A stretch of DNA of 64,000 nucleotides from an uncultured Bryobacteraceae bacterium (lineage in GTDB: Bacteria > Acidobacteriota > Terriglobia > Bryobacterales > Bryobacteraceae): assembly GCA_938003835.1 (NCBI GenBank), contig CALKXJ010000020.1:124001-188000 (forward strand), read 5' to 3'. The position numbers were made by a program, and so were the translations under genes. The notes beneath the pieces were generated by a model. That model was not told the origin of the DNA and made no database searches. It saw only the letters and a list, made by a program, of their open reading frames with translations. This document shows positions 11,343 to 28,274 of the stretch, in pieces; position 1 is the stretch's first letter; each line of letters starts with the position of its first letter.

Positions 11343-14081
11343 TCAGCCCTGAAAGAAGCTCCGCCGGTTGCTCTTCGGCAGCGGTGCGGGGTAGCCGATC
11401 AGACAATACTGGTCCAGCGCGAACAGCACCACCGATTCGACATTTTCGGCCTGCGCCATCCGCACCTCCTTGAGCCAGGGAGTTGTCGCGTCCATCAGAC
11501 CCACAAGGAAGGCTCGCTTCGAGGCAGGGAATCCGTTCATTCGGGGAAAGGTGATGGTATGCCGGCTCAGGTCCAGGTTGCGCACAAACGTGTAGGTGAA
11601 GCTCTCCGTCTTCAGGCAATCGAGCGTCGCCGGCGTCCAGTTCGGCGCGTAGTTGATTAGCCGGTTGAGTGGCGTGTCGTTCACATCGGTGGGATAGAGC
11701 ACCTCAAAACGGCAGTTGGGAAAAGCCGAGCGCACAAAATCCATCACCGCAGCGGTGAAAGCCCCGATCAGCGAGGGCAGCAACTGGACTTCTTCGGGGT
11801 AGTCCGCCGGGTCGGCGAAGTTGCTGGGAATCACCCGCATCGGGCGCCCGTAGATGCTTTGAAACGTACTGACGGTGTAGGCGTCGTAAAACGGCATGCC
11901 CGAGCCCGGCAGAGGGAAGTACCACCACTGCACTTCGCCGAACTGAAGATACGGCTGGTGACCGGTCGCCGCGAGCAACTCCGCCATCTCCAGGTAAACC
12001 TGCCGCCAGTAGTTTAGGCTCGTCGGGGAGAAGTTGGTTTGTAGCGCCGGCGTGTTCAGCCAGACGGCCTCGCCGTTGGGATAACGCTGCGCGATGCCCG
12101 CCTCCGGCGTCGGATCCCCGTGCTGGAGCTCCATGCTGAATGCCGCCACGACGTCGAGCCCGTAGTTGCGCAGCGCGGTGTAAAATGCCAGGCTCCAGTC
12201 CCGCACCGCCCGGTTCAACCGCGGCAGGGCGGCCAAATCCGTCCGCCAATCCCCGTCCGTGCCCCCGCTGAGCTTCGGCCCGCTCACGATAACCTGCATG
12301 CTCGCTGATTCCGAGCGCGCCGAGATGGTCACCTTGTTGCCCGCTGTCCCCATCGCGCGGGCGAACACCGTCAGGCGGCTTCCCTCGGCCTGTGCTCGCA
12401 CTGCGGTGTAGCCGCGATTCAATTCGAGCTCGAACGCCTTTGCCACGGTCTCCGCCGTATCGCCGATTCGATTCACGTGCTGGAGGATCGCGTCCTGCTC
12501 CGGCGGGTAATCCTCGTTGCCGATTCGCAGCTCCGTCAGCTTGCTGAATTCCGGCGTGCCGACGAAGTCGACGGTCGCCGACGCGTACTGGTGACCCGGC
12601 CGGTGCAATTCATAGAACCAAAGCGCGCCCACGTAGTGGTTCACTCGCCCGTGAAAGCCCAGCTTGTGAATCAGCCAGGCCGTCCGCTCCGCCGCCAGCG
12701 CCATCGAGTGATCCGTGTCCCAGTCGGTCGCCAGGTTCAGCTTCGGCTCGCCTGGAAAATCGGGCAGCGTCGTTACGGGAAGGGCAATCTCGACGAAATC
12801 GAAATAAAAGTGGCTCCCCGGAGCTCCGGCGTGCGTGACGGTCAGCTCGTGCTCTCCAGACTCCAGTTCGGCGGCCAGCACACGCCGCAACACGTCCTCG
12901 CCTGCGATGAACAGGTTCTCCAGCCTCGCCGGTTGCCCGTCCACGACGATCTGGATCTGCGCCCCGTTGAACGTCGAGCGCGTCCCTAGGTAGAGCCGGT
13001 GCGCCGCAGGCATCCGATACCGGCACCTCAGCCCGGATCCTGGCGTCACCGTCAGCGAGATGGTTCCCCCGGAGAAATTCCCCTTGGCCCGGCTCCACTC
13101 CCCGAAATACTCGATCCCGGCGGAATCGTCTTCGATCCGCCGGCTCCCCGGGCCGGCTACCTGATACGTTCGCCTGGTCCCCGTGACGCTCCAGTTGGAA
13201 ACTACCACCTCGAACTCGCTCCGGGCGAATGCGCCCGGCTGGAGCTCAGCCGAGTACGTCCATCGCATCTTGCGCACTGCCGTGGTGGGCACAACGCGCC
13301 CGAAGCGGTCCGTCAGCGATCCGAAGGGGAGGGTGATTCTCCATTTGTGCGGGGACTGGCCTCCGGAAAAGGTCCGCCACCAAGGCGTCCAGTACTCCGT
13401 TCGGGCGCCGGCCACAAAACCGTACACGCCGATTCGATTACCGTTGGCTCCCGTCGTGCTTGTCTCCGGAGTCTGTCCTGCTCCGACGTAGATCAGCCGG
13501 ATGCGGCGCCCCTGTTGCAACGCCCGCATCTGCGTCGAAAAGGTGTTTACGCTGGCGACGATCGCTCCGATGGCGGCCTCGAGCGTATCGTTGGCATAGA
13601 GCTGGTAGGTGTGATGTTCTCCCAGAAACGAAATCCCGACGTAATCGCCCGCCGTCGCCGTCCCCGCCAGCTCGAGTTCCGCCGTCGCGCAAACATACTG
13701 CCCCTCCACGGGAACCGCGTAGTTCTTGAGTGGGACTTGGTAGAACTGCTCTCCGCTCCCGTCGTCGGCCCAGATGCGCAAGTAGGGCCAATCCACTGTC
13801 GGATAGAGTGTTGAATCGATAGGGATACAGTTCGTGCGTGTCTCTTCGTAGGACAGCACCAGCCCGCTTAAGTCTCCGTCCGGCAGGTTGCGCAGCGCCG
13901 GATGCTCGAAGACATTGTCCCGGTTCCATTCAATGACGGCCCAATCGAACTGCTGCCGCCAGGTCCCCGACACCCGGAACCCGGTCGGCCCGGCATGGTG
14001 CATGGCTGCGATCGCGGAGGGTCTCTCGTAGTAACATTGCAGGTCCCGGTCCGGTCGGAGCTTTTCCAAGACCTCGGGCAT
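11343..14081 (-). CDS. Large distal tail-tip/fibre-like protein of the particle module, possible TIM-barrel hydrolase-like domain
   Basis: 912 aa, not assigned to a family with confidence. It is the last gene of the head-tail module and sits where phages encode tip or receptor-binding proteins. The N-terminal ~450 residues are beta-rich with repeated sugar-binding-like or Ig-like character. The C-terminal half alternates helices and strands, with WSLAFYTALRNYGLDVVAAFSMEL and FGEVQWWYFP (Glu near residue 716), which resembles a glycosidase-type TIM barrel. Gene transfer agent tips also carry a TIM-barrel-like domain, so the parallel is of interest, but neither homology nor catalysis is shown here. 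The ATG at 14081 has GAGGGA upstream and lies 9 bases after the previous stop. Confidence 0.5.
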   Translation of the reverse strand: MPEVLEKLRPDRDLQCYYERPSAIAAMHHAGPTGFRVSGTWRQQFDWAVIEWNRDNVFEHPALRNLPDGDLSGLVLSYEETRTNCIPIDSTLYPTVDWPYLRIWADDGSGEQFYQVPLKNYAVPVEGQYVCATAELELAGTATAGDYVGISFLGEHHTYQLYANDTLEAAIGAIVASVNTFSTQMRALQQGRRIRLIYVGAGQTPETSTTGANGNRIGVYGFVAGARTEYWTPWWRTFSGGQSPHKWRITLPFGSLTDRFGRVVPTTAVRKMRWTYSAELQPGAFARSEFEVVVSNWSVTGTRRTYQVAGPGSRRIEDDSAGIEYFGEWSRAKGNFSGGTISLTVTPGSGLRCRYRMPAAHRLYLGTRSTFNGAQIQIVVDGQPARLENLFIAGEDVLRRVLAAELESGEHELTVTHAGAPGSHFYFDFVEIALPVTTLPDFPGEPKLNLATDWDTDHSMALAAERTAWLIHKLGFHGRVNHYVGALWFYELHRPGHQYASATVDFVGTPEFSKLTELRIGNEDYPPEQDAILQHVNRIGDTAETVAKAFELELNRGYTAVRAQAEGSRLTVFARAMGTAGNKVTISARSESASMQVIVSGPKLSGGTDGDWRTDLAALPRLNRAVRDWSLAFYTALRNYGLDVVAAFSMELQHGDPTPEAGIAQRYPNGEAVWLNTPALQTNFSPTSLNYWRQVYLEMAELLAATGHQPYLQFGEVQWWYFPLPGSGMPFYDAYTVSTFQSIYGRPMRVIPSNFADPADYPEEVQLLPSLIGAFTAAVMDFVRSAFPNCRFEVLYPTDVNDTPLNRLINYAPNWTPATLDCLKTESFTYTFVRNLDLSRHTITFPRMNGFPASKRAFLVGLMDATTPWLKEVRMAQAENVESVVLFALDQYCLIGYPAPLPKSNRRSFFQG

Positions 14082-14090
14082 CCCGGTCCC

Positions 14091-17000
14091 TCACAGCCGG
14101 ATTGTCACCGTCAAGTCGGCGCCCGGCGTCACACCGTCGCCATAACCCACCGAAACAATGTCCAACGTGAGCTCCCCCCGCTCGCGCAAGGGCGGCAAGC
14201 CGAACCCGTCAACGACATTCGACATCGTCGCGCCTGCGGGAATTGTCAGCGCACAGTATGGCTGGCCGTCCTGCCGGAGTTGCAACTGGACCGGCGCTCC
14301 AGTCGGGGCCTGACCCACCACCGCGAAGATGTCTCGCACCGAATGGGCTTCCTCGATCACCAGCGGAGGCGCCGCGTTAGTCTGAATCGCCAGATACCCT
14401 TCCACCTGAATCGAAAGCTGCCCACCAGAGAGCGTTCGCAACCCTTGCTGCGCTGTTTCGGTGAAGCTTACCCGCGCTGTTTCGCTGTTTCCCCGCGTGT
14501 TCGTCACATAGAGTTCCGCTGCGGCGATCCGCACGTCCGGGATGAAGATTGGATAAGCGAAACTCCCGCTCGCTGGACTGCCGAAGAAGTTCTTCACGAA
14601 CGGCACCACAAAAACCTTGCGTGCCAGACCGTAAATGGCGCTGCCGGCGGGATGGACCCGCGGCGTCGTGCCGAACGCTCCCCGGCTCACCTCGCACTGT
14701 GTCCCACCGGCGAGTACCGTGTCCACGACCATGAGCTCCGGCCCGATCTGAACCACCGAACCCTCGCCCCACCCCTGCGGAGCCGAAAGGTGGATCACCG
14801 TATCGCTTTCGGCAAGCTCGGCTGCGAGCGCAAGCGGCGTCGGGCTGTCCAGTTCGTTCCAGTAATGCAGCGTCAACGTCCCCGCTTGCACGTTTCGCGT
14901 GTTCGCCAGATCGGTGAATCCGACGCTCACCAGCTCCACCGTGCCTTGGCCGGCCGGAATCAGCCCGAATACCGGTCGTCCCGGGACGTCATGATCAATG
15001 CCGACGCTCCCGCTGGCGCCCCCGATGACCCAGCGTGTCAGTGGCGACAGCTCGTAGGCGCATTCTCGCCCGTGAACGTTCGTGGCTCGCCCCGAGATAT
15101 GCACGGTGGCTCCTTCGCGGTTCGGTACCTCGAACTCCACCGGACTCGTTGCCCCGGCCGCGCCGAAATGCCAGGACGATTCGGCCACCACGAACCGGCT
15201 GCTCGCGTCCGGCACGACGCTCCAAGCCGGCCTCACCGTCAGCGTCTGCGCGTCGTTGGCGAGCACCGTTCTCTCCTGGCCCGCCCCTTTCCCGCGCGTG
15301 ATCCGCACCGTCATCCCTGCGTACTCGTTGGCGAGCATCTGGAGCGTCGCGCTTCCGATCGTGTTTTGCGACGCTGAGCTGACCGCCTGCTCCGGCACGA
15401 GCTCCAGTCGCCAGTAGAACCGCGCGTGATCGAAGTTCTCATCCGGTGGGCCGGCCAGAATCACCGGCAGCCCCGTGTCCCGAAATTCGCTCGCCCGGGC
15501 GACGCTGCTCGCAATCCGGTATAGCGTCGACGGTGAGTCTCCGCGGTACACATGGAAAGACGCCGTCTCCCGCGAGAAACTCAATCCGCGCAACGTGACG
15601 GAATAGTTGCTGCCCCCGGAGGGAATCGCCGCAGGCACCGTGAACGAAAGCGGACCCTCCGCCCCGTCCCCGTCCACCCCGCTCACCGCGTAATAAAGCG
15701 TCTGCCCGCCGCTGAGCACGCCGCTTCCACCCTCGATGCGAGGAGCCAGACTTAGCAGCGGCGCCCCGGCCCGGCTGATTTCCGGCTTCGCCGGAGGAAC
15801 GAAGCCGACGCTCAGCGTGACAGTGACCGCGCCGTCGCTGTTTCCCGCCGCCTTCTCGGCGATTTCAAACTGCGGCTTGCCGTCCTCATCCAGGATCTTG
15901 CCGATCAGCGGCCGCGGCAGCCCGACCGCGCTTCCCGGCTGCCGTCCTTCCCCCGGACCTTCCCCCAGGGACCGGTCGTCGTACCAGGCATCGTCGTGCT
16001 TTTGGCAGGTGAGCGCCAGGGTCCGGTAATTCGCTCCCACCGCCACCTTGAGGATCTGGAAAGGCTGCCGGATCAGGCCCTCTTTCGCATATGTCAGGGT
16101 GATCAGGTCCCCAGGCTTGAGCCCCAGGCCGCGCACGCTCGTCTCGAACTCGACAAAGAGATTCCCGCGTATGTCCTTGTCGAGTTGCCGCCGGATCAAC
16201 CGCGCCGCTTGGCTCACGTTCGGAATCCCGAGAGCATGGAGCGTCGCGCTCACCTCCTGCGCGGTCGCCAGCACGTCGTCGACGTCCACCAGCGAGAGGC
16301 TGTCTTGCTGGTACTCATTGAACTCGTTCTGAAATTCCACCGAGTACCGGTTCGGCGTCTCCGCATTCGTCCGCGACCACAACCGCAGCGCCGGCTCCCC
16401 ACTCTTTCTCCGCAAAATCCCGGAGAAGCCCGTTGTGCCGTCGCCGAATTCGTAGCAGGGCCATCCGCCGTTGTACGGCTCGACGCTGTTGCTGCCCGGC
16501 GGCTTCGTCGGCTGCTGCAAGGCAAAGCTCCCCTCCGGATGGAGCTCGAGCACCCCTCCCGCGCCATACGTCAGATACAGGCCTGCCGCGTTTCGCACCC
16601 CGCGCACCAGATCCGCCGCGCTGCGACGCTTGCGAACCACCAGATTGCACTGATAACGCGGAACCTGCCGCACTCCGCCGTACAAATCCTGGACTTCGAT
16701 CAGCTCGTCGCAATGCGCTGCGGTCCGTGCGAAACTCTTCAGATCGAGTTCCTCCAGTCCCCACCCGCAACGCCGCAGCAGATCCAGAATGACCCAGGCC
16801 GGGTTATTCGTGAACCGGTAACTGGAATAGATTCCGTTCAGGTCGAAAGTCTCCAGCTTGAGCCCGTGCACCAGCGCCTCGATGCGCGGTAGCGCCCGCC
16901 CGTCGCTGATCCGGTTTGGCACCGCCACCGACATGTAGGCCATGCTGCCGTAAGGGTCACCCAGCGGCTGGCCCGCCTTGTCGGTGAAATCCAGGTTGAA

Positions 17001-18023
17001 ACCGCCGGTCCGTCCCCCCAGGCTCACCACGTTGTACCAGCCGGTCGCTGTCATGTCCGCTCCGGCTCGCCCCTCCGGAATCTCGATCCCGTTCACCACC
17101 ACTTTCAGCACGCCCTCGATCTCGCCCATGCCCAACAGCACTTCCATGCGCGTCAGGTTCCCGTCGTTTCGAGCGAAAACCACCGGCGGCTCCAGCCACG
17201 CCGTGCCGTAGATGAGCGGCACGAAGTCGTTGTATCGCGCCAGATTCTCCGTCGGCACGCTAAGGTGGGCGCCGCGCTCGCCATAGCTTCTTACGGCTAC
17301 GGCCGCCGGCACGAATTCGATGCCTCCGAAACGTCGCGTGTCGTTTCCTGCCGAGTCGCGGTCGAACATCCCGCGCTCCTCGCAGCTCTGCCGGGTATAG
17401 TCGCACCAGGCGTACGGCACGCCGTTGTTCAGATTGCCGACCCCGTCCGTCAACCCCGCCGAGTAGCCGCAGCGAAAGAACGGCGAGTAACGTCCTTTCG
17501 TTCCGCCCCGCACTGCCTCCTGTCGCTGCGCGCTCGTCGCTGGAAACGTCCAGGGGCAGCGCCTCTGGATGCGCACCTCCGGCAGAAAGCTGCGTTGCAG
17601 GCTCAGCCGGTTCGTGAAGCTCAATCGGAAAACGGTCTCCGTGACCTCCTCCGGAGGATTCGCAATCCCGCGGAAAACCACCACCGCCTCCGACGTGGCC
17701 GCACGGTGCCTCAGATCGAAAAAGACAAACCGCACCGTGAGCCGCGCCCCTTTCCAGCCCACGCTGCGCTCCACTTGCGAGAAAAACGAATCCGCGTTCG
17801 CCAGCGAAATCGAGATCTTGGAAATCGCGTCGATGCCTTCTTCCGAACCGGCGTGCATCTCGAAGACGTTGTGCTGCAAAACCCGCGCCTGATAATCCCG
17901 CCCTTCGAAACGCACCGCATGCGTGCTCCACGAGTGAACCTCACCTGAGCTGAGCTCACAATCGAATAGCAACAGCGGTGTGTCGAGGATCTGCCGTTCT
18001 TTGATTTCCGGTATGCCTGCCAT
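14091..18023 (-). CDS. Tail-tip hub protein: lambda gpL-like N terminus fused to gpJ-like body
   Basis: 1310 aa. Residues 1-~220 look like lambda gpL/DUF2163-type tip proteins and hold four cysteines at 156, 185, 207 and 214; the last three are spaced x21 and x6, close to the spacing I recall for the gpL iron-sulfur ligands. From about residue 250 (PLIYGTAWLEPPVV) the sequence becomes J-like, with hub domains (ELIEVQDLYGGVRQVPRYQCN) and then fibronectin/Ig-type beta domains (VTVTLSVGFVPPAKPEIS, YYAVSGVDGDGAEGP). The protein would plug the distal tail and carry receptor-facing domains. It starts 3 bases after the preceding stop, consistent with translational coupling. Confidence 0.65.
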   Translation of the reverse strand: MAGIPEIKERQILDTPLLLFDCELSSGEVHSWSTHAVRFEGRDYQARVLQHNVFEMHAGSEEGIDAISKISISLANADSFFSQVERSVGWKGARLTVRFVFFDLRHRAATSEAVVVFRGIANPPEEVTETVFRLSFTNRLSLQRSFLPEVRIQRRCPWTFPATSAQRQEAVRGGTKGRYSPFFRCGYSAGLTDGVGNLNNGVPYAWCDYTRQSCEERGMFDRDSAGNDTRRFGGIEFVPAAVAVRSYGERGAHLSVPTENLARYNDFVPLIYGTAWLEPPVVFARNDGNLTRMEVLLGMGEIEGVLKVVVNGIEIPEGRAGADMTATGWYNVVSLGGRTGGFNLDFTDKAGQPLGDPYGSMAYMSVAVPNRISDGRALPRIEALVHGLKLETFDLNGIYSSYRFTNNPAWVILDLLRRCGWGLEELDLKSFARTAAHCDELIEVQDLYGGVRQVPRYQCNLVVRKRRSAADLVRGVRNAAGLYLTYGAGGVLELHPEGSFALQQPTKPPGSNSVEPYNGGWPCYEFGDGTTGFSGILRRKSGEPALRLWSRTNAETPNRYSVEFQNEFNEYQQDSLSLVDVDDVLATAQEVSATLHALGIPNVSQAARLIRRQLDKDIRGNLFVEFETSVRGLGLKPGDLITLTYAKEGLIRQPFQILKVAVGANYRTLALTCQKHDDAWYDDRSLGEGPGEGRQPGSAVGLPRPLIGKILDEDGKPQFEIAEKAAGNSDGAVTVTLSVGFVPPAKPEISRAGAPLLSLAPRIEGGSGVLSGGQTLYYAVSGVDGDGAEGPLSFTVPAAIPSGGSNYSVTLRGLSFSRETASFHVYRGDSPSTLYRIASSVARASEFRDTGLPVILAGPPDENFDHARFYWRLELVPEQAVSSASQNTIGSATLQMLANEYAGMTVRITRGKGAGQERTVLANDAQTLTVRPAWSVVPDASSRFVVAESSWHFGAAGATSPVEFEVPNREGATVHISGRATNVHGRECAYELSPLTRWVIGGASGSVGIDHDVPGRPVFGLIPAGQGTVELVSVGFTDLANTRNVQAGTLTLHYWNELDSPTPLALAAELAESDTVIHLSAPQGWGEGSVVQIGPELMVVDTVLAGGTQCEVSRGAFGTTPRVHPAGSAIYGLARKVFVVPFVKNFFGSPASGSFAYPIFIPDVRIAAAELYVTNTRGNSETARVSFTETAQQGLRTLSGGQLSIQVEGYLAIQTNAAPPLVIEEAHSVRDIFAVVGQAPTGAPVQLQLRQDGQPYCALTIPAGATMSNVVDGFGLPPLRERGELTLDIVSVGYGDGVTPGADLTVTIRL

Positions 18024-18026
18024 GTT

Positions 18027-18827
18027 TCAGCTCTGCTGGAGATTCACCGCTATCCGGATGACGCTCGCATGACAGTCGACCCCCTCGGTGCGGACCCGGA
18101 GCTCGTCGCTCGCAAAACGCGCATTCGGGAAAACCCCTCCTCGCTCCCGGCTCTCCTTGTAACTCGAGGCGCCACGGTGAGGCTCCACCTGCATGCCGTA
18201 GACTTCCACCGAGCCGCCCGCCGGTAACGCCACCCCGAAGTGCACGCGCGTCTCCGCCCCGCCCAGTCGCCCCGTCTGCGAAATGCGCCTCCACGAACTC
18301 GTAACTTGAAACTCCGCCTGTTGGACCTGCGAAGCGCTCCACTGTTTCAACCTCAACCCGATCGGCGTGGCGCTTCTTGCATACAGGCTCCAGCAGTAGT
18401 AATAGTCCGCCGGCACATCTAGCGCCTGCGAAATCATCTGCTCCGTCTGCCCGAGATTGACCAGGCGCGCCGCCCCGCGACCGCCAAACGGATCTCCGAC
18501 TCCGGGGGTGACGCTCAGCAGCGGGTCTTTCTGCCACTCCGCCTTGGTCAGGTCGCCGCTCCAGGCGAGCAGATTTCCGGTGGGATCCAGGAAGCAGAAC
18601 GAGCCGAGACTCCCTTCACAGGCGTGAAACAGCTCCTCGACAGCACGCCACTCCGCATCGCTCATCCCGTTCAGGTGGAGCTCCCACTCCAGATGCTGCT
18701 CGTCGGGGTCTCCCAGCTTGATCTCCGCGCCTTCCTGGGTCAGGCTGATCGCGGTCCTGCCTCGCCGCCTCCGCTTCAAGGGATACTGGGCGACTGCGCC
18801 GGTCGCCAGTTGAGGAAAGTAGCGCAT
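18027..18827 (-). CDS. Minor tail protein, M/DUF2460-like N terminus with extra beta domain
   Basis: 266 aa. The first ~100 residues (FPQLATGAVAQYPLK, then EWELHLNGMSDAEWRAVEELF and GSFCFLDP) are paralogous to the next gene upstream and resemble lambda gpM/DUF2460-type proteins, which cap the tail between tube and tip. The remaining ~165 residues form a beta-rich, lectin-like module (YYYCWSLYARS, VEVYGMQVEPH), perhaps carbohydrate-binding. It begins one base after the stop of the paralogue. The specific role is inferred from position. Confidence 0.6.
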   Translation of the reverse strand: MRYFPQLATGAVAQYPLKRRRRGRTAISLTQEGAEIKLGDPDEQHLEWELHLNGMSDAEWRAVEELFHACEGSLGSFCFLDPTGNLLAWSGDLTKAEWQKDPLLSVTPGVGDPFGGRGAARLVNLGQTEQMISQALDVPADYYYCWSLYARSATPIGLRLKQWSASQVQQAEFQVTSSWRRISQTGRLGGAETRVHFGVALPAGGSVEVYGMQVEPHRGASSYKESRERGGVFPNARFASDELRVRTEGVDCHASVIRIAVNLQQS

Positions 18828-18828: not shown

Positions 18829-19188
18829 TCAGCCTCGGTTCTCCCTGATGACCAGTGTCGTTTGCCCCTGATTGAGGTCTTCGAACGAAAGCGTCAGCTC
18901 ATCGTGCTGGATGCTGCACGAAGGGTACCGCTGCCCGTCCCAGGGATCCGTGAAAGCAAACTCCCCGGCCCGCCCCTGCTGCGCCTGGAAGAACTCTTCG
19001 ATCTGCGCCAGCTCGCTCTCATCCACCCGGTCGAGCCGGATGATCCACTGTCGCTGCGGAGCGCCGTAGTCCGGGCAGCGCTGCTCACTCCCGTCGACGA
19101 ACCGGAATATTTGCGTCGAGTAGGCCAGCAGCTTTTCCGCCGGATACTGGAGAACGGCCCCCGTCTTCAGACGCGGAAACTCACTCAT
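18829..19188 (-). CDS. Small minor tail protein, M/DUF2460-like
   Basis: 119 aa, about the size of lambda gpM. The pattern FPRLKTGAVLQYP ... QWIIRLDRVDESELAQIEEFF ... GEFAFTDPWDG is shared with the N terminus of the downstream gene, so the two arose by duplication. In siphoviruses this protein joins the tail tube end to the tip complex. The ATG at 19188 has AGGGAGCAG upstream. It lies directly after the tape-measure gene, which is where M sits in lambda-type tail operons. Confidence 0.6.
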   Translation of the reverse strand: MSEFPRLKTGAVLQYPAEKLLAYSTQIFRFVDGSEQRCPDYGAPQRQWIIRLDRVDESELAQIEEFFQAQQGRAGEFAFTDPWDGQRYPSCSIQHDELTLSFEDLNQGQTTLVIRENRG

Positions 19189-19230: not shown

Positions 19231-19938
19231 TCAGAGATCGGCCACGACGTCGGCGAGCGTGTGCGTGTTGAGCAGTGCCTCTTTCACCGCCCGCGCGATC
19301 TCCGCACTGTGGTCCAAAAACGATCGGCTGTCGATCGCCTGCACCTGGATTGTGATCGGCGTCGTCACAGGCGCCGGGCTCGTCACCGTCCGCGGCGCGA
19401 GCCCCTGGCCGTAGTCAAGCGGCTGAAGTCGCCCCCCGCTTAGCGCCGCCGTCCATTCGATCGGGGGGGGCGCGACGTACCTCGTCAGCACGGTCTCCTT
19501 CGGCTTCTCCTCGCCGCCAAACAACTTCCCAACCAGCCGCACGAGGCCCAGGCCGCTGCCCAGAAAACCCAGCACGCTGCGGGCTATGCCTCCGGCCGTT
19601 GAAGCTTTGCTCTCGCCGGCCTTCGCCAGCGAATTCTCGATCACTGCCCTGGTGTTAGCCTCCACCGTGTCGGCCTGCAACCGCGAAACCACTGCAAGCT
19701 CTGCCAGGCGCTGCGCCAGTTGCGTCATCGGCCCCTCGAGACTCCTGAGGGTCTCGTTCTCGGTCGCGGTCTTGCTCTTGGCCTCCTCGGCGTCTTCTGC
19801 CCGGCGACTGGCTGAATCCGTCGCCACTCGGGAAAGCAGGCCCGCGATCAGCTCCTCCGCCGGCCGCTCCGGCGCCCCGCGCGCAATCACTCCGGCCAGC
19901 AGGCTGCTCAGCACCCTCCGCGCTTCATCGTTCCCCAT
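19231..19938 (-). CDS. Very short tape measure-like protein
   Basis: 235 aa. It follows the G/GT chaperone gene and precedes the tip genes, the invariable position of the tape measure. It has a helical N-terminal half, a Gly-rich hydrophobic segment (SVLGFLGSGLGLVRLVGKLFGG) and a C terminus typical of tape measures (IQVQAIDSRSFLDHSAEIARAVKEAL cut here to its core motif SRSFLDHSAEIARAV). Normal siphophage tape measures run 600-2000 aa, so the tail would be short. GGAAGGAGG precedes the ATG at 19938. The start overlaps the end of the frameshifted GT reading frame by 14 bases. Confidence 0.6.
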   Translation of the reverse strand: MGNDEARRVLSSLLAGVIARGAPERPAEELIAGLLSRVATDSASRRAEDAEEAKSKTATENETLRSLEGPMTQLAQRLAELAVVSRLQADTVEANTRAVIENSLAKAGESKASTAGGIARSVLGFLGSGLGLVRLVGKLFGGEEKPKETVLTRYVAPPPIEWTAALSGGRLQPLDYGQGLAPRTVTSPAPVTTPITIQVQAIDSRSFLDHSAEIARAVKEALLNTHTLADVVADL

Positions 19939-20631: not shown

Positions 20632-21801
20632 TCAGGCGAAGGCCAGATAGATCTCATCGTCGATCCAGCCCTGTGCCCGGCAATCCCGGAACCGCCACTC
20701 CAGGCGCGTCTCGTCGTCTAGGAACTCCGGTACCTCCGGAATCACGCTTTTCAGGTACACGCCGCACAGTTGCCCCGGCTGGATGCCCAATTGGAACATC
20801 ACGCTGATCGGTGACCGCTGGCGTGCCGCCTGGTAAAGGGATTTTGTCGCCTCGTCCGGCCTCTCATAGAGGCTGAAGCTCGCTGCCACATACCTCTCCC
20901 CGGCCACGATGCACCGTGGACCCATCGAGCCGAACTCCTTCGCCCGCATGTCAAGGTTGTTGTCCAGTACTACCTCGGCCTCCGTCAGCGTTAGAAACCG
21001 CTCCGGAGTTGTGCCGAGCCACGCCTGACCGAGATTCCCCGGAACCACGCCGTAGCTGTCGGGAGTAAGCGGCGGCTCTTCGGGGAACTCATCCAGATCC
21101 CCTTGGCCGCTCTCGAAACTGGCGCTGTCTAGCAGGTCTTGCGCTGCCCCGCTGAAGGTGAATTCATGAAAGTCCGCGTTGATGTTCACACGCAGGCGGT
21201 CGACGGCCGCCCCCGCGAGAATCCGGTGCACCGCGCTCTCCGGGCTCCAGTAATCGAAGATGCTGATGCTCGGCAGCGTGGCGCCCGGCAGAAACGTCAT
21301 CGTCCTCTCGATCGGCGTCCCAGCGCCGACCGCCCCGGTGAATGGCGCGTTCAGCTGTACCGTCTGCGCATCCACCACCGCCGTCACGAACCGGATCTCC
21401 CCCGCGCACGCCACCGCTTGCCCCGGAATCAGTCCATGGGCGTTCCCCATTCTTAACTGCGTCCCGCTCACCGCGCTCACCACTCCCCCAGCGAAGCTCC
21501 GCGAGCCGCCTCCGAACGCCGCCAGGAACAACGGCCGGTATCCCGGCGCCGCCGCCCCCGACGGCCACTCCGCCAGATAGGTCGTCAGCTCGAAACTCGT
21601 GCGGCGCCTCACCCCGCTTGGGATCCCCCCGAAGGTTCGCCCGCCGATCTTGTCCCGCCGTTCGATCCGTTCCAGCTCCTGTCTGGCGACCAGGCGCACC
21701 GCCGGCACACGAGTCGCTCCCTCGATCGGCGCCACCTGACCAAAGCGGTCTTCGATCGCTACATAAAACCGGTTCTGCTTGGTGGAAATGTAACACGACA
21801 T
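20632..21801 (-). CDS. Major tail tube protein (probable)
   Basis: 389 aa. It is beta-rich and lies between the tail-terminator-like gene and the G/GT chaperones, the slot of the major tail protein. Segments such as FYVAIEDRFGQVAPIEGATRVPAVRL and GGRTFGGIPSGVRRRTSFELTTYL are typical of tube proteins; a central insert (HGLIPGQAVACAGE ... VTAVVDAQTVQLN) looks like a small Ig-like or hydrolase-like beta domain that could decorate the tube surface. The family is assigned by position and fold impression only. Confidence 0.6.
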   Translation of the reverse strand: MSCYISTKQNRFYVAIEDRFGQVAPIEGATRVPAVRLVARQELERIERRDKIGGRTFGGIPSGVRRRTSFELTTYLAEWPSGAAAPGYRPLFLAAFGGGSRSFAGGVVSAVSGTQLRMGNAHGLIPGQAVACAGEIRFVTAVVDAQTVQLNAPFTGAVGAGTPIERTMTFLPGATLPSISIFDYWSPESAVHRILAGAAVDRLRVNINADFHEFTFSGAAQDLLDSASFESGQGDLDEFPEEPPLTPDSYGVVPGNLGQAWLGTTPERFLTLTEAEVVLDNNLDMRAKEFGSMGPRCIVAGERYVAASFSLYERPDEATKSLYQAARQRSPISVMFQLGIQPGQLCGVYLKSVIPEVPEFLDDETRLEWRFRDCRAQGWIDDEIYLAFA

Positions 21802-21822: not shown

Positions 21823-22320
21823 CTATCCCAAGCTCACATCCACATCGAAAACGACCCGGGCCGACTGTATATAACTCCGCCCCCCCGGCTTTGCCGCCTC
21901 GAACTGGATCTCGTAGCCCCCGCCGTAAAACACGCCATTGCCCCAGTCGCCATGACTCTGGTGCAGAACCTCGGTGATCGCATCCACATACAGCCCGAGC
22001 TGCTGTTCCAGTCCTGCCAGCCGTTCTCCCGACACCCGCACCTCGATGTTCAGTCTGGCCGTGCCGGAGAAGCTGCGAAATTTCTCTCGCTGTAAATTGC
22101 GCACCCGGTCACAGTACACGTAGATCGCCGGATACCGGAATGTCTGCCCTCGCTCGGCTACCTCACGCGAGGCATTTTCCAGAAACAGGCGCGTCTCCTC
22201 GAGCTCCGGGATCGCCACATTCTCCCGCAGCCGGATCTCCGCCAGCGCCCTTGCCATGCCCTCCTCCGACGCGAGCAGGCCCGCCAGTGTCCGCGTCGCC
22301 AGCCCTGCCACCTGCGCCAT
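21823..22320 (-). CDS. Tail terminator/tail completion-like protein
   Basis: 165 aa. Short alpha-beta protein placed just before the tail tube gene, where siphophages encode the terminator that caps the tail and fixes its length (lambda gpU-type). Motifs such as RYPAIYVYCDRVRNLQ and GTARLNIEVRVSGERL, followed by a helix LEQQLGLYVDAITEVL, fit that fold. The assignment rests on position, size and secondary-structure pattern. It begins 6 bases after the stop of the preceding gene. Confidence 0.5.
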   Translation of the reverse strand: MAQVAGLATRTLAGLLASEEGMARALAEIRLRENVAIPELEETRLFLENASREVAERGQTFRYPAIYVYCDRVRNLQREKFRSFSGTARLNIEVRVSGERLAGLEQQLGLYVDAITEVLHQSHGDWGNGVFYGGGYEIQFEAAKPGGRSYIQSARVVFDVDVSLG

Positions 22321-22326: not shown

Positions 22327-23067
22327 CTACCCTCTCATCAGGATCCGGTCGTTCCGCACGTAGCGCTCCGGCTCCTGTCCCGGCACCCCTGGCTGCCCCC
22401 GCTCCAGCTCTCCGCCGGACACCCATTCGCTCTGAAGCCCCTCCGGCGCCACTGTCTGCCGCGCCAGGTCCCGCTCCGAGCTTCCGACATAGACGTGGAA
22501 CCCTGCGGCCACCGCCGGCGGTTGCACGGCGCGCACTCCAAGCGCCCCCTCCGCAGCGAGCGTCCAGACCACCGCCTCGCTCGCTGCCCCGGTCTCACCC
22601 CGCGCATCCACCCATGCCACTTTGATCACGTACGTCCCGGGCGCCAGTGTCCCGGGCAGCGTTCGCACCAACGGCGCAGCCGCCTTCGGAATCGGCCTGC
22701 TCACCAGACCCACCCCGATCCGGAACAGCGTCTCGGCAGCCCACCGCGCTCGCATCCTGTAATCCGCCCACTTCCGCTCGAACCGTTGACTTACATGACT
22801 GTTGTGAATGTCTCCGTAAATGAGTGCCAGCGTCCGCAGCGTGTGCCACTGCTTCAGCGCCGGTGTCACCACCACCTGCGATAGCGCGGCTTGCCCGCCC
22901 GTGGTTCGGGCTAGAAACTCCTCCAGCTCTACGCCAATCTCCTTCATGGCGAGTTCGAGCTTCGCCTGGAGCGACACCCCCTCGGCCGCCGCCACCTCCG
23001 TCACAGCGGCGTCGTAGGCGCGCAAGTCCGCCACGTCCGATGCGTTGCCGTCGGTAAACAGTGCCAT
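22327..23067 (-). CDS. Head-tail connector region protein of unknown family with Fn3-like tail
   Basis: 246 aa. The first ~120 residues are helical (VSLQAKLELAMKEIGVELEEFL, then ALKQWHTLRTLALIYGDIHNS), as in gp6-type adaptor proteins that sit under the portal. The C-terminal part is beta-rich and Fn3-like (LAPGTYVIKVAWVDARGETGAASEA; GFHVYVGSS). Being between coat and tail terminator genes, a head-completion role is likely. I do not recognise the exact family. Confidence 0.45.
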   Translation of the reverse strand: MALFTDGNASDVADLRAYDAAVTEVAAAEGVSLQAKLELAMKEIGVELEEFLARTTGGQAALSQVVVTPALKQWHTLRTLALIYGDIHNSHVSQRFERKWADYRMRARWAAETLFRIGVGLVSRPIPKAAAPLVRTLPGTLAPGTYVIKVAWVDARGETGAASEAVVWTLAAEGALGVRAVQPPAVAAGFHVYVGSSERDLARQTVAPEGLQSEWVSGGELERGQPGVPGQEPERYVRNDRILMRG

Positions 23068-23089: not shown

Positions 23090-23416
23090 CTAGGCCTGCT
23101 TTTGCGACTTCAACGAGCGGTACGCCCGCAGCTCCGCTTCCGAGACCACCGCGATCTGCACTTTGCTGGCTGCCGCGAGCTCCTGGGCCCGCCGGTGCGA
23201 TGCCTCCAGTTCTCGCCGGTACTCGGCCGCCTCCGTCTCCGTGGCCAGCCGCCCCCTCCCCTCCACCAGAAGCTTCGCCGCCAGGCGCTTCGAGACCTCG
23301 GTCTTCACCCCAGGCACCCCTCCGTCCGGCGTCTCATAGCTGACAATCACCACCTCCTCCCCAGGAAGTTGCGCCTCCACCTCGCGAATCTTGCGGTAAT
23401 AGGCCTTCAGATCCAT
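23090..23416 (-). CDS. Small particle-module protein of unknown function
   Basis: 108 aa, charged and helical, following the coat gene and preceding the connector-like gene on the same strand. Visible features are an N-terminal DLKAYYRKIREVEAQLPGEEVVIVSYET segment and a Lys/Arg/Glu-rich coiled region around YRRELEASHRRAQELAAA. No cysteine pairs or nuclease motifs. It could be a head decoration or completion protein; nothing more can be supported. It is separated from the coat gene by a hairpin-containing spacer. Confidence 0.45.
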   Translation of the reverse strand: MDLKAYYRKIREVEAQLPGEEVVIVSYETPDGGVPGVKTEVSKRLAAKLLVEGRGRLATETEAAEYRRELEASHRRAQELAAASKVQIAVVSEAELRAYRSLKSQKQA

Positions 23417-23509: not shown

Positions 23510-24421
23510 CTAGCTCAGAACCCTCACGCCGAAGTTATTCCGCAGCACACCCACGCCGTAGAGCACGTCCACGGTGAATTGCTGAGCCAGCGTGTTCGGC
23601 TGGTAGCTCATGACCACGCGGATGCCGAAATTGCCCAGTTCGGCGTACTCGGCCACCGCACCGGTCCCCGGCAGCGGCTGCGGCAGCCGGCGGATCACCA
23701 GACCGATCGCGTCCCGCGCGAACGCCAGATTGTGCGTCGTCACCGGCGAGCTGCCCGTCTTGTGAACGAACTGCGAACGGAAGACGTAAAAGTCCTTCAC
23801 CTTGCCCACCGTGCCTTCCACCAGCGCCCGCAGTCCCGCCTCCCCCGCGGTCCGGAACTCGCTGAACCGCTCGATCTGCCGCAACTGCGAATAGGTGTTA
23901 CCGTCCACCACCAGAAACTTTGGCGCGCTCGCCGGCACCTTCGCGTTGAACAGCGCCGTCTCCGCCGCGTCGATCGTGGCCTCGGTAATCGCCGTGCCCG
24001 GCGCCCCCACCGCCGGGTTCGCCGTGAATTGCGCATACAGCCCCAGCAGGTCCGACTCGATCTTCTCGGCCAGCGCCACCATCGCCGGCTGCATGTACAG
24101 ATGCAGCAGATCCGGCACCGCCAGGACCTTCGTGACGTCCGGAATCTGGAACGTCGCCTCCGCATGCGTGTTGAGCACGATCTGTGCATTGCCCAGACTC
24201 GGACTCTGCGGCGTCACCGATCCGCCTTCGGCTAGATTGTTCGCCACCAGGCTCGGCGGAATCGAAACGTTCACCGTATCGCCCGCTTGGGCCAGCACCG
24301 GCTCGTAATCGCGATTGACCAGGTTACCCATGACAAGGTTCCCCATCAAAGCTGGTAACGCATCCGCCGCTACTAGCTTGACAATCGCATTCGCTAAGTT
24401 TGCTGAAGTGATAACTGGCAT
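23510..24421 (-). CDS. Major capsid (coat) protein, P22 gp5-like
   Basis: 303 aa. The N terminus (ITSANLANAIVKLVAADALPALMGNLVMGNLVNRDYEP) and the following VSIPPSLVAN, HAEATFQIPDVTKVL and FLVVDGNTYSQLRQIERF segments match P22-type coat proteins with the HK97 fold. Such coats assemble on a separate scaffold and need no protease, which agrees with the scaffold gene upstream and the lack of a protease gene. TTAGGAGAA precedes the ATG at 24421. The first ~25 codons use many A/T-ending codons (TCA, TTA, CTA, GTA, CCA, GCT, TTG), unlike the GC-ending codons of the rest and of the neighbours. Confidence 0.75.
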   Translation of the reverse strand: MPVITSANLANAIVKLVAADALPALMGNLVMGNLVNRDYEPVLAQAGDTVNVSIPPSLVANNLAEGGSVTPQSPSLGNAQIVLNTHAEATFQIPDVTKVLAVPDLLHLYMQPAMVALAEKIESDLLGLYAQFTANPAVGAPGTAITEATIDAAETALFNAKVPASAPKFLVVDGNTYSQLRQIERFSEFRTAGEAGLRALVEGTVGKVKDFYVFRSQFVHKTGSSPVTTHNLAFARDAIGLVIRRLPQPLPGTGAVAEYAELGNFGIRVVMSYQPNTLAQQFTVDVLYGVGVLRNNFGVRVLS

Positions 24422-24594: not shown

Positions 24595-25179
24595 TCACTC
24601 GCCCCGGTAAACTTGCGAGATCGCTTGGGCAATCTCCTTTCGGATCCGGTCCAGCTCCTCCCGGTCCATCCCCGGCTTGATCCGGTCCAGACTGAACCGT
24701 CCGGAAAACGATTCCGCCGGGCTCGAGCTCGCCCCGGAACCCCCTCCTACCCGCGCCGGCAGAAGCTCCGGATTCTCCCGGGCGAAACGGGCCAGGTACT
24801 CCTGCATGCTGACCTCCCCGTCAGGCCCCCGCGCCACCAGTCGCCCGTCCGGCGTCCGGTAAATGTCGTCTTTGACTGCCTTGAACCCCAGCTCCACCTT
24901 GGTCACGCCCAGCCGCACCAGCTCGTCGCGAATCGCCGCGTAGCGCTCCGTCTCCTCGGCCTTCCGCCGGCTCCGCTCGTTCTCCTGCACGAGCTCATTC
25001 ACCCGTCGCTCGAGCTGCTCCCGCCGCCGCCGCTCCTCCGCCAGCTCCGTCTTCAGCACCGGTTCCGCCCTGCTCCGTTCCGCCTCGATGAACTCTTGAA
25101 TCGCTTGATGTATCAGCGACCGGATGTTGGTCTCCGGAATCTCGACCTCACTCTTTGTCTCTTTCACTTGCTCTTCCAT
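24595..25179 (-). CDS. Capsid scaffolding protein (probable)
   Basis: 194 aa, acidic and strongly coiled-coil from about residue 28 to 85 (IHQAIQEFIEAERSRAEP ... RRRREQLERRVNELVQENE). The C terminus is helical with mixed charge (MDREELDRIRKEIAQAISQVY), as expected of the coat-binding end of a scaffold. The position between portal and coat genes is the standard one. Scaffolds guide procapsid assembly and then leave the shell. The family is inferred from position and composition, since scaffolds share little sequence. Confidence 0.6.
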   Translation of the reverse strand: MEEQVKETKSEVEIPETNIRSLIHQAIQEFIEAERSRAEPVLKTELAEERRRREQLERRVNELVQENERSRRKAEETERYAAIRDELVRLGVTKVELGFKAVKDDIYRTPDGRLVARGPDGEVSMQEYLARFARENPELLPARVGGGSGASSSPAESFSGRFSLDRIKPGMDREELDRIRKEIAQAISQVYRGE

Positions 25180-25282
25180 CGCCGTCCTCTCGCTTCAAGC
25201 CCTCCTTGACTCGTCCGCGACCGCCCGGTGGCCTCGCGCGTCTGCCGCGCCCCTCCGGGCGTTTTGGCTCACCCTAACCCGC

Positions 25283-26677
25283 TTATCCCTTCGGAAATGC
25301 CGCCTCGATCTCCTCCGCAATCCGTTCCTTGACCTCTTGCCGGACGTCGCACAGATACTTGAAAGCCAGCTTCTTGAATAGCTGTTTCCGCAGAGTCTCC
25401 GACGGGATCCCAAGGCTCAGCAACCTCTCGGCATCGGCTAGCTCCGCGGAGAAGTCCCCGATATCGAACTCTTCCAACCCGGATACGTCCACTGCAAGGC
25501 CGTCTTCGCGCGCCGCGACAATCGAACGCAGGACCCTCTTCATCGTGTCCTTCACGATGTCCCCGTAAGTCCGCAGCACCTCTTGGGTGATCGCAAAGTC
25601 CCTCTGCTTGCTGATCCCGGATTGCAGCGCTGCGCTCGACAGCCGGCCCCCGGCCTGCGACAGCAGGTAACACACCCGATAAATCTCCTCCTGGAGCCTC
25701 GCCAGATTCTCCGCCGCAATCGTGAAAACCTTCCCCTCCGGCTCCGTCCAGCCGAAACGATCCTCCGGCCCAAGCTGTATGTAGTAAGATTCTCCGACTA
25801 TCTGGTTCCACTCCCGGTCGGTGTAAACCACCGGCGAGGCGAACAGCCCCATCGTCAACGCCCACGACAGGGCATTCGCCTTGTTGAAATGCTCGAGCTG
25901 GAGCAGGCCGGCCTTGTTCATCAGCCACAACCCTTCCGGTACCCTCATCTCGAACAACGGCACCCGCTGCTGCTTCGCCAGGCCGTGCCGGCCGCTGTCG
26001 ACCAGCTCCGGTACGCCCGTCGTCTCGTTGATCCGCTGCCGCCGGTACACCCGGAAGCCCGTCCTGTCGTAGTAGGTCCAGCGCGTCTCCTGAATCAGCT
26101 CCTCGCTCGCCGCCGACTCCCGGTACGTCCGGTGCGTGCGGATCACCACCCAGTCGAAATTGCCCCGCTCGTCTCGGCTCCAATTGATCAATTCCGTCGG
26201 TGAGTATCCGACCAAGTACGCGCGCGAGGCCCCCAGGGCCTCTTCCTCTGCCCGAGTGCCCAGCGGACCCCTCACCCGGGGAAAGTCCACCAGAACATAC
26301 GCCGTACCCGAGATCAGCGCCTCGATCAGCAGCCCGCGGAAAAACTCGCTCAGGCTGCTGCCCCTTAGATCGCAATCCTCCGTGAACTCGGCAATGAAAC
26401 GCTTCCCCTCCTCGTCGTCCCCCTCCGTCAGCACCAGCGGCTCCCGCCGGAACAAAGTAGCCGCGTACCAGTCCACGATCGAGCCGATGTAATTCTCGTA
26501 GTAAACCCGGCTTAGCCGCTCTGCATAGACCTCGAGCGGCTCCCGCTGCCGTCTCACCAGGTAGTAAGCGGCGTTCGCCTTCAGTTGCTCCCCGCCGACG
26601 TACAGGTCTCGGTACGTCCTCCAGGTCGTCTTCTTTGCGACGTAATCGGGATGTTCCCGGTCGATCTGTGCCTCCAC
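25283..26677 (-). CDS. Portal protein
   Basis: 464 aa from the GTG at 26677, chosen because AGGAGAAGGAG lies about 8 bases upstream and the start falls 21 bases after the terminase stop; the frame is open further into the terminase gene. The sequence (YYENYIGSIVDWYAATLF, GLLIEALISGTAYVLVDFP, then GISKQRDFAITQEVLRTYGDIVKDTMKRVL) resembles DUF4055-type portals. Portals form the dodecameric DNA channel at one capsid vertex and dock TerL during packaging. Order TerL-portal-scaffold-coat is typical of tailed phages. Confidence 0.75.
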   Translation of the reverse strand: MEAQIDREHPDYVAKKTTWRTYRDLYVGGEQLKANAAYYLVRRQREPLEVYAERLSRVYYENYIGSIVDWYAATLFRREPLVLTEGDDEEGKRFIAEFTEDCDLRGSSLSEFFRGLLIEALISGTAYVLVDFPRVRGPLGTRAEEEALGASRAYLVGYSPTELINWSRDERGNFDWVVIRTHRTYRESAASEELIQETRWTYYDRTGFRVYRRQRINETTGVPELVDSGRHGLAKQQRVPLFEMRVPEGLWLMNKAGLLQLEHFNKANALSWALTMGLFASPVVYTDREWNQIVGESYYIQLGPEDRFGWTEPEGKVFTIAAENLARLQEEIYRVCYLLSQAGGRLSSAALQSGISKQRDFAITQEVLRTYGDIVKDTMKRVLRSIVAAREDGLAVDVSGLEEFDIGDFSAELADAERLLSLGIPSETLRKQLFKKLAFKYLCDVRQEVKERIAEEIEAAFPKG

Positions 26678-26697
26678 GCTTGCGCTCCTTCTCCTGC

Positions 26698-28008
26698 TCA
26701 GCCCAGCAAACTCCGCCCTTGTTCGCCCACCGGGCCCCGCGGCTCCCCGAACTCCTGCCACAACAGGTAGCCGAGCGCATCCGCAAGGTGCGTTCGCCGC
26801 GGGTCCCGATCCTTGTCGATCAAACTACTGCCCGGCTTGTAAGTCACTTCCTCGAAATCTCGAATCAGCTCCCGGCACTTCGGGCTGACATAGAGCCGTA
26901 TTTCCCCAGCCGCATTCCTCAGCCGGGCGTTTACCAGCGCCACACGGTCGCGTACCGCCGGGTTCCTCCGGGGAATCCGGTAGTCCACCCGGCTGTAGCC
27001 CCCTCGCGCTAGACACTTCCGCAGGATCTCGAGGTCCGTGCCGCCGCCCGTCTGCGCGTGCCGCCCCGAGGCGTCGGCATACACCCGAAGCCCCGCTTTC
27101 GTCGGCGGATACCGGTTGGCGAACTCCTCATACGCCTCCCAGGTGCTGGAACGGCTAAGCACGATCTCATCCAGCACCTGCACGGTCTCTCCCTCCCGCT
27201 GCGCAATTACGCTGCACATCGGATCGACGTTGAAGTCCAGCGCCCACATGAGCGGCTGCCTCGCATCCGCCTCGAGCTCCCGAACGTGGACCGCTCGCTC
27301 GAACGCGTGATACACCCGGCCCTCGTGCATGCTCAGGTATTCACCCAGCACCTCTTGCCGGTAAAACCGCTCGTCGTAGCTGTGCCGCAGCCGCTCGTAG
27401 AAATCCGGGATCTTTTCGAGCAGATGCCGGTTCTCCATCGGTCGGGCGACTACCGCCTCGTAACCCTCCACCGGCTTCTCGATGAACCGCCGGTAAACCC
27501 AGTCGTGGCCCTTCGGAGTCCACACGGCAAACCCGCAGAGCCGCCGTGCCAGCGGATCTCGTAGCCGCCCTTCCAGCCGCACCCACGCCTCCTCGGAGGT
27601 ATAGGTCAACTCGTCCACGCCGAACCAGGCCAGGTTTGTACCCCGAAGCCTCTCGTACTCCTCGAGCGAGCGAAACAGAATCCGCGAACGTGTATCTTTC
27701 AGCACTAAGACGTTCTCGGACTTATTCAGCTCATACGGAATCGAGTTGCTCTCCAGCACCTCGAGCAGCGTCGCTTGCGTGGTGTCCCGCAACATCGGAT
27801 ACGTGGGCGCTCCCACCAGGCCCGTCCGGCCGGGGTTCAGGTAACTCAGCTTGATCGCCTCCTGGCACAGCGCCCGGCTCTTGCCCGAACCGATCGGCCC
27901 GGAAAACCCCTTGAAACGTGCCTGCGAACGATGAAACCGCGCTTGAGACGGCAGCGCTGCGTACTCGATCAGGCAGGTACATCTTCCGTCCCGGACGGTT
28001 CGACCCAT
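26698..28008 (-). CDS. Terminase large subunit (packaging ATPase and nuclease)
   Basis: 436 aa. ATPase part: Walker A GPIGSGKS (37-44), Walker B LAWFGVDE (126-133, acidic pair D132/E133). RNase H-like nuclease part: ALDFNVDP (D258), VYADASG (D312) and THLADALG (D410), so the three metal-binding acidic residues are all present. It should translocate and cut DNA at the portal. The start at ATG 28008 overlaps the TerS-like gene by 40 bases; no strong ribosome site is visible, so coupling is likely. Intact motifs argue that the module can still package DNA. Confidence 0.85.
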   Translation of the reverse strand: MGRTVRDGRCTCLIEYAALPSQARFHRSQARFKGFSGPIGSGKSRALCQEAIKLSYLNPGRTGLVGAPTYPMLRDTTQATLLEVLESNSIPYELNKSENVLVLKDTRSRILFRSLEEYERLRGTNLAWFGVDELTYTSEEAWVRLEGRLRDPLARRLCGFAVWTPKGHDWVYRRFIEKPVEGYEAVVARPMENRHLLEKIPDFYERLRHSYDERFYRQEVLGEYLSMHEGRVYHAFERAVHVRELEADARQPLMWALDFNVDPMCSVIAQREGETVQVLDEIVLSRSSTWEAYEEFANRYPPTKAGLRVYADASGRHAQTGGGTDLEILRKCLARGGYSRVDYRIPRRNPAVRDRVALVNARLRNAAGEIRLYVSPKCRELIRDFEEVTYKPGSSLIDKDRDPRRTHLADALGYLLWQEFGEPRGPVGEQGRSLLG

Positions 28009-28274
28009 GTCACCACAATCTCCCGGGGGCGCTCTTCCTCGAGCTCCTTGCGCAGCTCCAGCAGCCGGATGAAGTCTCCCACGCTTGCCTTGAAGTCACT
28101 CTTCTTCAGCCGCTCTTCGAGCCGCGCAAGGATTTCGTCGATGAGTTCTGCCTTCCGTTGATACCAGTCTTCGGCCGCCTGCCGGCCTGACCTCGTCCCG
28201 GCTCGCCCATCCCCCGACCGCAGTGCCCCCTCCCCTCTCTCGCTTCCTGCCCCTCCCTTCCGTCTCTCCGCCAT
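27969..28274 (-). CDS. Small-terminase-like protein lacking a visible HTH domain
   Basis: 101 aa from the ATG at 28274 (the frame extends to 28313). The N-terminal ~40 residues are Gly/Arg-rich and look disordered; then come two helices (AEDWYQRKAELIDEILARLEERL; SVGDFIRLLELRKELEEE) and a short C-terminal strand REIVVTWVEP. The helical oligomerisation core and the C-terminal strand that docks TerL resemble small terminases, but no N-terminal helix-turn-helix for pac-site binding is seen. The gene directly precedes and overlaps TerL, which supports the assignment. Confidence 0.5.
   Translation of the reverse strand: MAERRKGGAGSERGEGALRSGDGRAGTRSGRQAAEDWYQRKAELIDEILARLEERLKKSDFKASVGDFIRLLELRKELEEERPREIVVTWVEPSGTEDVPA

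Follow-up and report, generated by a model that had tools for sequence, protein, structure and literature searches.

We describe a block of phage-type head and tail genes in the chromosome of a bacterium of the family Bryobacteraceae (Acidobacteriota) that is probably a tailed-phage particle system domesticated long ago in this family, most likely acting as a gene transfer agent (GTA). The block was analysed in a 64-kb stretch of DNA (the window) on contig C20 of genome G000 (5.0 Mb in 38 contigs; completeness, 100%). It is a continuous run of minus-strand genes at positions 11343–28274, leads from a small terminase (TerS) gene that starts near 28274 to a tail tip gene that stops at 11343, and in about 17 kb holds a set of phage head and tail genes. 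A GTA-like or domesticated particle system had been proposed here from the letters of the window (the original prediction), and the proposal is supported by presence across the family, a joined-gene tree congruent with that of the hosts, low ratios of non-synonymous to synonymous substitution (dN/dS) and the failure to find an integrase or attachment (att) site at the locus.

A conserved module in the Bryobacteraceae

We fetched 20 further loci with the major capsid (coat) gene. Two of these (G032b and G054b) are of phage type, and the remaining 18, of which three come from other families, are loci of the module. The order of the module genes is the same in all 18 (G089 is cut before the tail), a recurrence that takes the block far beyond chance; together with the open reading frames (ORFs) and profile matches in the window, it bears out the predicted uninterrupted head-and-tail block. 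Among these loci, TerS falls below detection in G007, G008, G047, G054a, G068, G081 and G089, the large terminase (TerL) in G054a, the tape measure in G007 and G081, and the tip in six, and G068 has an insert of about 3.5 kb before the distal-tail genes.

Downstream of the module, a gene for an ABC transporter ATPase with a Wzt domain (ABC/Wzt) lies within 0.7 kb in 7 of the 18 module loci tested, which include the window (G000, G025, G027, G028, G029, G033 and G041); in G032 this gene is near the module, inverted. Because the genera with this linkage are scattered over different host clades, the shared neighbour points to an ancestral site. The conserved location across relatives that had been suggested as a mark of domestication was found in part, on the downstream side; the upstream side of the module is variable. 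The only neighbours that recur in at least 5 of 21 loci are the downstream ABC/Wzt gene, a POT transporter gene and an Xaa-Pro-type gene, with ORFs antisense to such genes, and no replication or integration gene is conserved beside the module in these loci.

In a sample of one genome per genus, 54 of 61 members of the family have the coat gene, with 70–89% identity where it is full length. A wider count found it in 198 of 237 genomes of the family (124 of the 148 of good quality) and in 70 of 76 genera. This is not the sporadic distribution that was named beforehand as speaking against domestication. Most of the 198 genomes have a single match (180), and 18 have two or three, some split or distant; G592, counted in the 198, has a distant coat only. 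The coat is rare outside the family. Among genomes of other families it was found in 5 of 40 (two of f2 and one each of f3, f4 and f12), and a sample of 396 genomes across the phylum contained 2 close coats, both in Bryobacteraceae, 16 distant ones (at most 32% identity) and 378 genomes with none. The module is also present in an isolate, KBS 96 (KB906767; G008), for which two prophages have been listed (Eichorst et al. 2018, PMC5900883); the module copy may be one of these.

The scan of genome contigs covered the best 80 of 192 coat-encoding stretches, and two scans of IMG/VR gave at least 599 and at least 592 stretches. Among the matches listed (131 loci on 130 contigs; L071–L150 and L285–L335), the longest IMG/VR contig is 20.7 kb, about the size of the module, which is only suggestive, as proviruses may have been trimmed and metagenome contigs are short. 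Many IMG/VR ‘viral’ contigs with the coat may be acidobacterial chromosome.

Two observations were made alongside these counts. A contig of a genome from family f3 in which no coat was detected (G073:C91, L346) carries the module tape measure, distal tail, hub and tip genes at its end, so counts of absence based on the coat only may be somewhat too high. Genus g129 of family f31 has a diverged P22-like coat (24–27% identity) in 11 genomes (for example, L274 and L276–L279), which could belong to another conserved module or to a common prophage.

Inheritance and selection

For 31 genomes, we compared a host tree of 22 ribosomal-cluster proteins (SecY included) with a module tree built from TerL, portal, coat, tube and hub. 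Of 28 splits, the joined module tree and the host tree have 17 in common, against a mean of 0.3 and a maximum of 4 in 2,000 label shuffles. The module tree has 17 splits with support of at least 0.99; 15 of them recur in the host tree, and no host split of equally high support contradicts any of the 17. Distances tell the same story (Mantel r of 0.71 for the joined genes; maximum of 0.50 in 5,000 permutations), and taken singly, portal (15 of 28), TerL (11 of 24), hub (11 of 23) and coat (9 of 28) each share splits with the host tree. Inheritance of the module within the Bryobacteraceae is mostly vertical, with the signal carried by the joined genes; seven single genes do not rise above their permutations (see below).

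Median pairwise dN/dS is 0.08–0.25 for the module genes with usable pairs (two pairs for the tape measure and none for TerS and tip), values that are rough given non-independent pairs and high dS, and that lie well below 1, as expected for a domesticated system. The module is kept by purifying selection. Internal stops are absent from the coat (0 of 181 sequences) and were seen in scaffold (1 of 174), g7 (1 of 170), TerL (2 of 138), g14 (2 of 117) and TerS (2 of 26); those in portal (14 of 157) and g11 (49 of 131) are suspected to come from queries that start upstream of the true frame. The TerL active-site residues are invariant: K43 in 130 of 130 sequences, D132 and E133 in 135 of 135, D258 in 139 of 139, and D312 and D410 in 141 of 141.

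The frameshift site of the tail assembly chaperone is similarly retained. The heptamer A AAA AAC stands at the end of gene G in 23 of 28 loci and in 23 of 24 in-family modules; it is missing from G017, from three loci of other families and from the G054 phage. Past the stop of G, the −1 frame is open for 329 nucleotides in the window and for 320–389 nucleotides in the 24 in-family modules. Candidate tape-measure ORFs measure 184–269 amino acids in 16 genomes, compared with 944 amino acids in the G054 phage.

The small terminase and its upstream element

A short ORF (median, 89 amino acids; range, 60–172) precedes TerL in 56 of 64 loci, with start codons set by rule. These ORFs have a W-containing C-terminal motif and most have a recognisable core of about 60 residues, before which the net charge is at least +3 in 35 of 56 and +2 in the window. 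An AlphaFold2 model of the window protein (predicted local distance difference test score, 72) has helices at residues 28–57 and 65–80 and a disordered N terminus, and the protein is predicted to have no DNA-binding domain. In RcGTA, gp1 is a short TerS in which the N-terminal DNA-binding domain is absent, a feature proposed as the basis of random packaging; small size and the missing domain are given there as features of a GTA-type TerS (Sherlock 2019, PMC6854486). The candidate here has the corresponding features (upstream of terL, short, helical and without a predicted DNA-binding domain), the ORF being seen in 56 of 64 loci and the fold in the model from the window only. The gene before TerL encodes 197 amino acids in the G054 phage, at most 217 residues from stop to stop in G032b, 213 amino acids in Streptomyces phage Keanu (gp1, annotated as helix-turn-helix) and 160 amino acids in cyanophage S-H1 (a hypothetical protein).

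Upstream of TerS, a TTTTCAATCACTTG-like site scores above the 99th percentile of shuffled maxima in 42 of 83 dereplicated regions (0.8 expected), with a matrix trained on the same 83 regions. A TGNTA motif, which was outside the training of the matrix, follows at +46 to +49 in 32 of the 42 element-bearing loci, and a GTTCACAG-like box can be seen by eye about 30 bases upstream of the site. The window has a weak copy at 28404–28491 on the minus strand (AGTCAC ... TTATCAGACGG ... TGGTAG; score of 16, at the 99th percentile of shuffles). A consensus scan for σ70 promoters and terminators gave no excess over shuffles. The conserved element may be a single activator-dependent promoter.

Phages that share the coat, and unlinked tips

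Second coats were found in G032 (L053/L054), G041 (L336), G054 (L065/L066), G507 (L372) and G648 (L375), where they lie beside a diverged scaffold (31–33% identity; none detected in G032); G648 also has a third coat. In the three loci that were checked further (G032b, G041b and G054b), TerL (35–52%) and portal (35–37%) are both diverged, and ORFs near the second coats were named as methylases in G032 and as a beta clamp, single-stranded DNA-binding protein (SSB) and long tape measure in G054.

In the trees, the phage-type coats branch from within the module coats, and four of the five stand with or close to their own host's clade (one of them weakly). The G032b coat groups with the G032 module coat (0.95–0.96), the G054b coat with the G023 and G054 modules (0.88–0.95) and the G041b coat with G041 (0.93), a placement that in a larger tree becomes a clade of ten otherwise made up entirely of host genus g42 (0.83), the genus being assigned from matching contig coordinates. 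The G507x coat adjoins this g42 clade together with G529 of another genus (0.74), and the G648b coat stands apart from that of its host and groups with G054b (0.98). The TerLs of the three phage-type loci fall outside all modules, and in a portal tree without outgroup the three phage-type portals form one long branch (1.00) beside the G068, G081 and G089 modules (0.98). Nested coats with diverged scaffold, and with diverged TerL and portal where checked, suggest that capsid genes were exchanged, probably repeatedly, between phages and the resident module. The simplest reading, with the direction not proven, is that phages repeatedly captured a resident capsid gene.

The tip is variable in location. 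Of the 18 loci that could be tested, six (G025, G028, G029, G033, G041 and G047) have no tip gene adjacent to the hub, and all six genomes have a tip homologue elsewhere, with about 28–36% identity. Some genomes with a linked tip have an additional unlinked one, so we can only infer the role of the unlinked copies. Across 11 unlinked-tip contexts, no neighbour is common to three or more, and those in G007 and G032 lie beside a hub-like piece. The promoter element was not detected at unlinked tips at the threshold used, in a scan that is insensitive and also missed the upstream region of G597 TerS. In G000 itself, contig C33 (L345, 3.0 kb) has a second tip homologue (33%) and contig C11 (L384, 3.4 kb) a second, below-cut-off DUF2460 match; these contigs may hold a tail locus away from the module or part of a phage.

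Genes of the block and its flanks

All genes of the block are on the minus strand. The head genes begin with the TerS-like small terminase (27969–28274; 101 amino acids), which is placed by position and overlaps the start of TerL (26698–28008), the packaging ATPase and nuclease. TerL matches PF03237, PF17289 and phrog_2 and has no match to PF03354. The portal (25283–26761; start codon uncertain) matches phrog_145 (5.7e-47), the head scaffold (24595–25179) phrog_206 (7e-07), and the P22-like coat, of 303 amino acids (23510–24421), PF11651 P22_CoatProtein (1.4e-16) and phrog_283 (6.9e-42); an AlphaFold2 model of the coat was poor (score, 42) and was not used. A conserved small protein 3′ of the coat (23090–23416), a candidate head–tail connector (22327–23067; weak match to phrog_8040 Hc3, E = 0.0085) and a candidate tail terminator (21823–22320) follow in conserved order.

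The tail genes comprise a candidate tube (20632–21801; phrog_290 minor tail protein, 8.2e-09), tail assembly chaperone G (20254–20619), its slippery heptamer for −1 frameshifting (20257–20263), the T extension of G/GT in the −1 frame (19925–20256) and a short candidate tape measure of 235 amino acids (19231–19938). Two DUF2460-type proteins come next, a distal tail protein (18829–19188; PF09343, 9.5e-12) and a second protein (18027–18827) for which PF09343 is below cut-off (1.5e-4) and the NCBIfam model NF048003 GTA_spike_fiber, a GTA head-spike-fibre family, reaches 53.7 bits (cut-off, 36). The hub, or central tail protein J (14091–18023), matches PF13550 and phrog_31, and the TIM-barrel NCTSP-type tail tip (11343–14081) matches PF23845 (1.3e-18). 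Matches of the first DUF2460 protein to TIGR02217 (the Rcc01695 family) and of the hub to GTA_megatron are weak and far below cut-off. TerS, G/GT, the tape measure and the small head–tail proteins gave no significant profile match except for the weak Hc3 match, and were named by position, size and conservation.

Ordinary chromosomal genes adjoin both ends, as originally described: TolB-like and DUF4097 genes upstream and, downstream, the ABC/Wzt gene (10085–11293, minus strand; PF00005 and PF14524), the POT transporter gene and a putative Xaa-Pro peptidase gene (identity read from the ORF). Profile searches recognised no integrase, replication, repressor or lysis gene and no capsid protease or g14-type peptidase in the block, in agreement with the predicted lack of such genes, although on contig C20 the integrase search covered PF00589 only. 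That family is absent from C20 and has five members on other contigs, other integrase types having had no genome-wide search. The window contains no tRNA gene, and no exact direct repeat of at least 14 bases joins the two flanks. Integrase and att repeats at this locus in close relatives had been named as grounds for rejecting domestication, and in these searches of the window and of C20 neither was found. The base composition said to match that of the host does so only roughly in the window (GC content of 64.1% for the module and 67.9% for the flank), but module and flank GC are correlated over 18 genomes (r = 0.87).

Interpretation

If the system acts as a GTA, a host regulator would activate one promoter upstream of TerS, the scaffold and the P22-like coat would assemble the head, and a short TerS that lacks a part for sequence-specific DNA binding, and in many cases has a basic N terminus, would hand host DNA unselectively to a fully active TerL. 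A short siphovirus-type tail would be made with the G/GT frameshift and a tape measure of about 235 amino acids; the hub, spike-fibre-like distal protein and tip would adsorb to related cells, and the particles would carry the bacterium’s own DNA from cell to cell. The genes for lysis and regulation would lie elsewhere on the chromosome, as would the tip gene in some genera.

Several observations weigh against this interpretation. Particle formation, random packaging, transfer, lysis and the regulator are all deduced from genes, and no lysis gene or regulator was found, without a genome-wide search for lysis genes. TerS is a candidate identified by position and architecture: 8 of 64 loci have no TerS-like ORF, profile searches against PDB and PHROGs gave nothing significant, and a fold search with the TerS model found no match at an E value of 0.001, just unspecific helical hairpins. 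Of the family genomes, 39 of 237 have no coat match, six have it in two pieces, and the G003 coat is interrupted by TAG, the split and interrupted coats reflecting decay or assembly error. Module and host splits conflict once at a support of 0.95 and twice at 0.9, the tip and host trees have 1 of 14 splits in common, and for seven genes taken singly (g6, tube, G, tape measure, the two DUF2460 proteins and tip) the Mantel r is not above the highest value in 1,000 permutations; short genes and tail parts either carry little signal or are exchanged. RcGTA-type GTAs are reported to favour cheap amino acids; measured by carbon cost, this bias is absent in TerL, portal, coat and tube and seen in hub and tip, each protein being compared with one or two phage copies.

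The particle may have been domesticated for a different purpose, for instance to kill competitors or to deliver cargo other than genomic DNA. GTA function is predicted here from genes, and a variable, mobile tip would fit the targeting of a changing set of cells. A tailocin-like killer needs neither head nor terminase, so the retention of head, portal, scaffold, a TerS-like protein and a TerL with invariant catalytic residues makes such a role unlikely; a tailocin proper, a tail without head or terminase, is disfavoured by the presence of those genes.

That the module is an ordinary temperate prophage lineage co-diverging with its hosts is highly improbable, even though its structural genes are intact and its hosts also harbour phage-type elements whose coat is related. 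Those elements look different from the module: by names read from the ORFs, they carry genes for a beta clamp, SSB or methylase, their TerS is longer and the tape measure in G054 has 944 amino acids. The block lacks recognised integrase, replication, repressor and lysis genes, outside it only three downstream chromosomal genes recur in at least 5 of 21 loci, and its joined-gene tree is congruent with that of the hosts. A temperate prophage with integrase and att was also considered as such, and the locus showed no att repeat and no PF00589 on the contig, a profile for the tyrosine type only. A decaying prophage relic, for which the coats that are absent or in two pieces in some genomes could be cited, is scarcely tenable given dN/dS far below 1, intact frames, the retained frameshift and promoter-like elements and the family-wide invariance of the TerL catalytic residues.

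We therefore favour a domesticated GTA-like system, and give an even chance to the fuller proposal that it is a new, independently domesticated P22-capsid GTA lineage present in most of the family, the capsid gene of which has repeatedly been picked up by phages. If this is true, a family-wide GTA of Acidobacteriota would add a capsid type that is absent from the RcGTA family and a route of gene exchange in soil, the GTA would be both a DNA shuttle and a reservoir of host-adapted capsid genes, and much of what IMG/VR lists as ‘viral’ contigs with this coat may belong to the host. The presence of the module in KBS 96 makes the GTA idea testable in an isolate.

Comparison with known systems

Three independently exapted GTA groups, two in Alphaproteobacteria and one in spirochetes, are recognised in a recent account (Kogay et al. 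2022, PMC9662315). Among the literature matches listed, none described a GTA from Acidobacteria, in a search with most subscription papers and preprints outside its scope. BaGTA (Bartogtaviriformidae) and BhGTA (Brachygtaviriformidae) are described in the same account as tailed phages that were domesticated independently and are maintained by a group of hosts, and the module would be comparable in this respect (PMC9662315). The hosts of BaGTA and BhGTA belong to other phyla than that of the module. Their gene sets presumably differ from that of the module.

Among deposited phages, the nearest TerL is that of cyanophage S-H1 (36%), and the coat with the lowest E value among the matches listed is that of Streptomyces phage Keanu (27%, 2e-14), in which the order TerS–TerL–portal–scaffold–coat is as in the module. 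Both are true phages, of 39 and 82 kb, respectively.

The RcGTA-type layout that was predicted is recognisable, as the arrangement of the module resembles that of RcGTA (Rhodogtaviriformidae), but the capsid family differs: the module coat belongs to the P22 family with a separate scaffold, and not to PF05065, a comparison made by family and not by direct sequence. PF05065 is absent in G000 and matched in Caulobacter, which we take to carry an RcGTA-like GTA with a PF05065 major capsid protein, and the reverse holds for PF11651. PF09343 (DUF2460) is matched in both genomes. Further differences from RcGTA are that no g14-type peptidase or capsid protease is recognised in the module, that its spike-fibre domain is located on a distal-tail protein and that its host belongs to another phylum. 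The RcGTA tape measure is described as a helix of 113 + 83 + 20 residues (PMC7296036), and RcGTA genes, like the module tip, are scattered, over five loci (PMC9662315). A layout like that of RcGTA with another capsid family suggests RcGTA-like working and not membership of the RcGTA family; the module is best read, from its genes, as a probable independent domestication of a phage with a P22-type coat.

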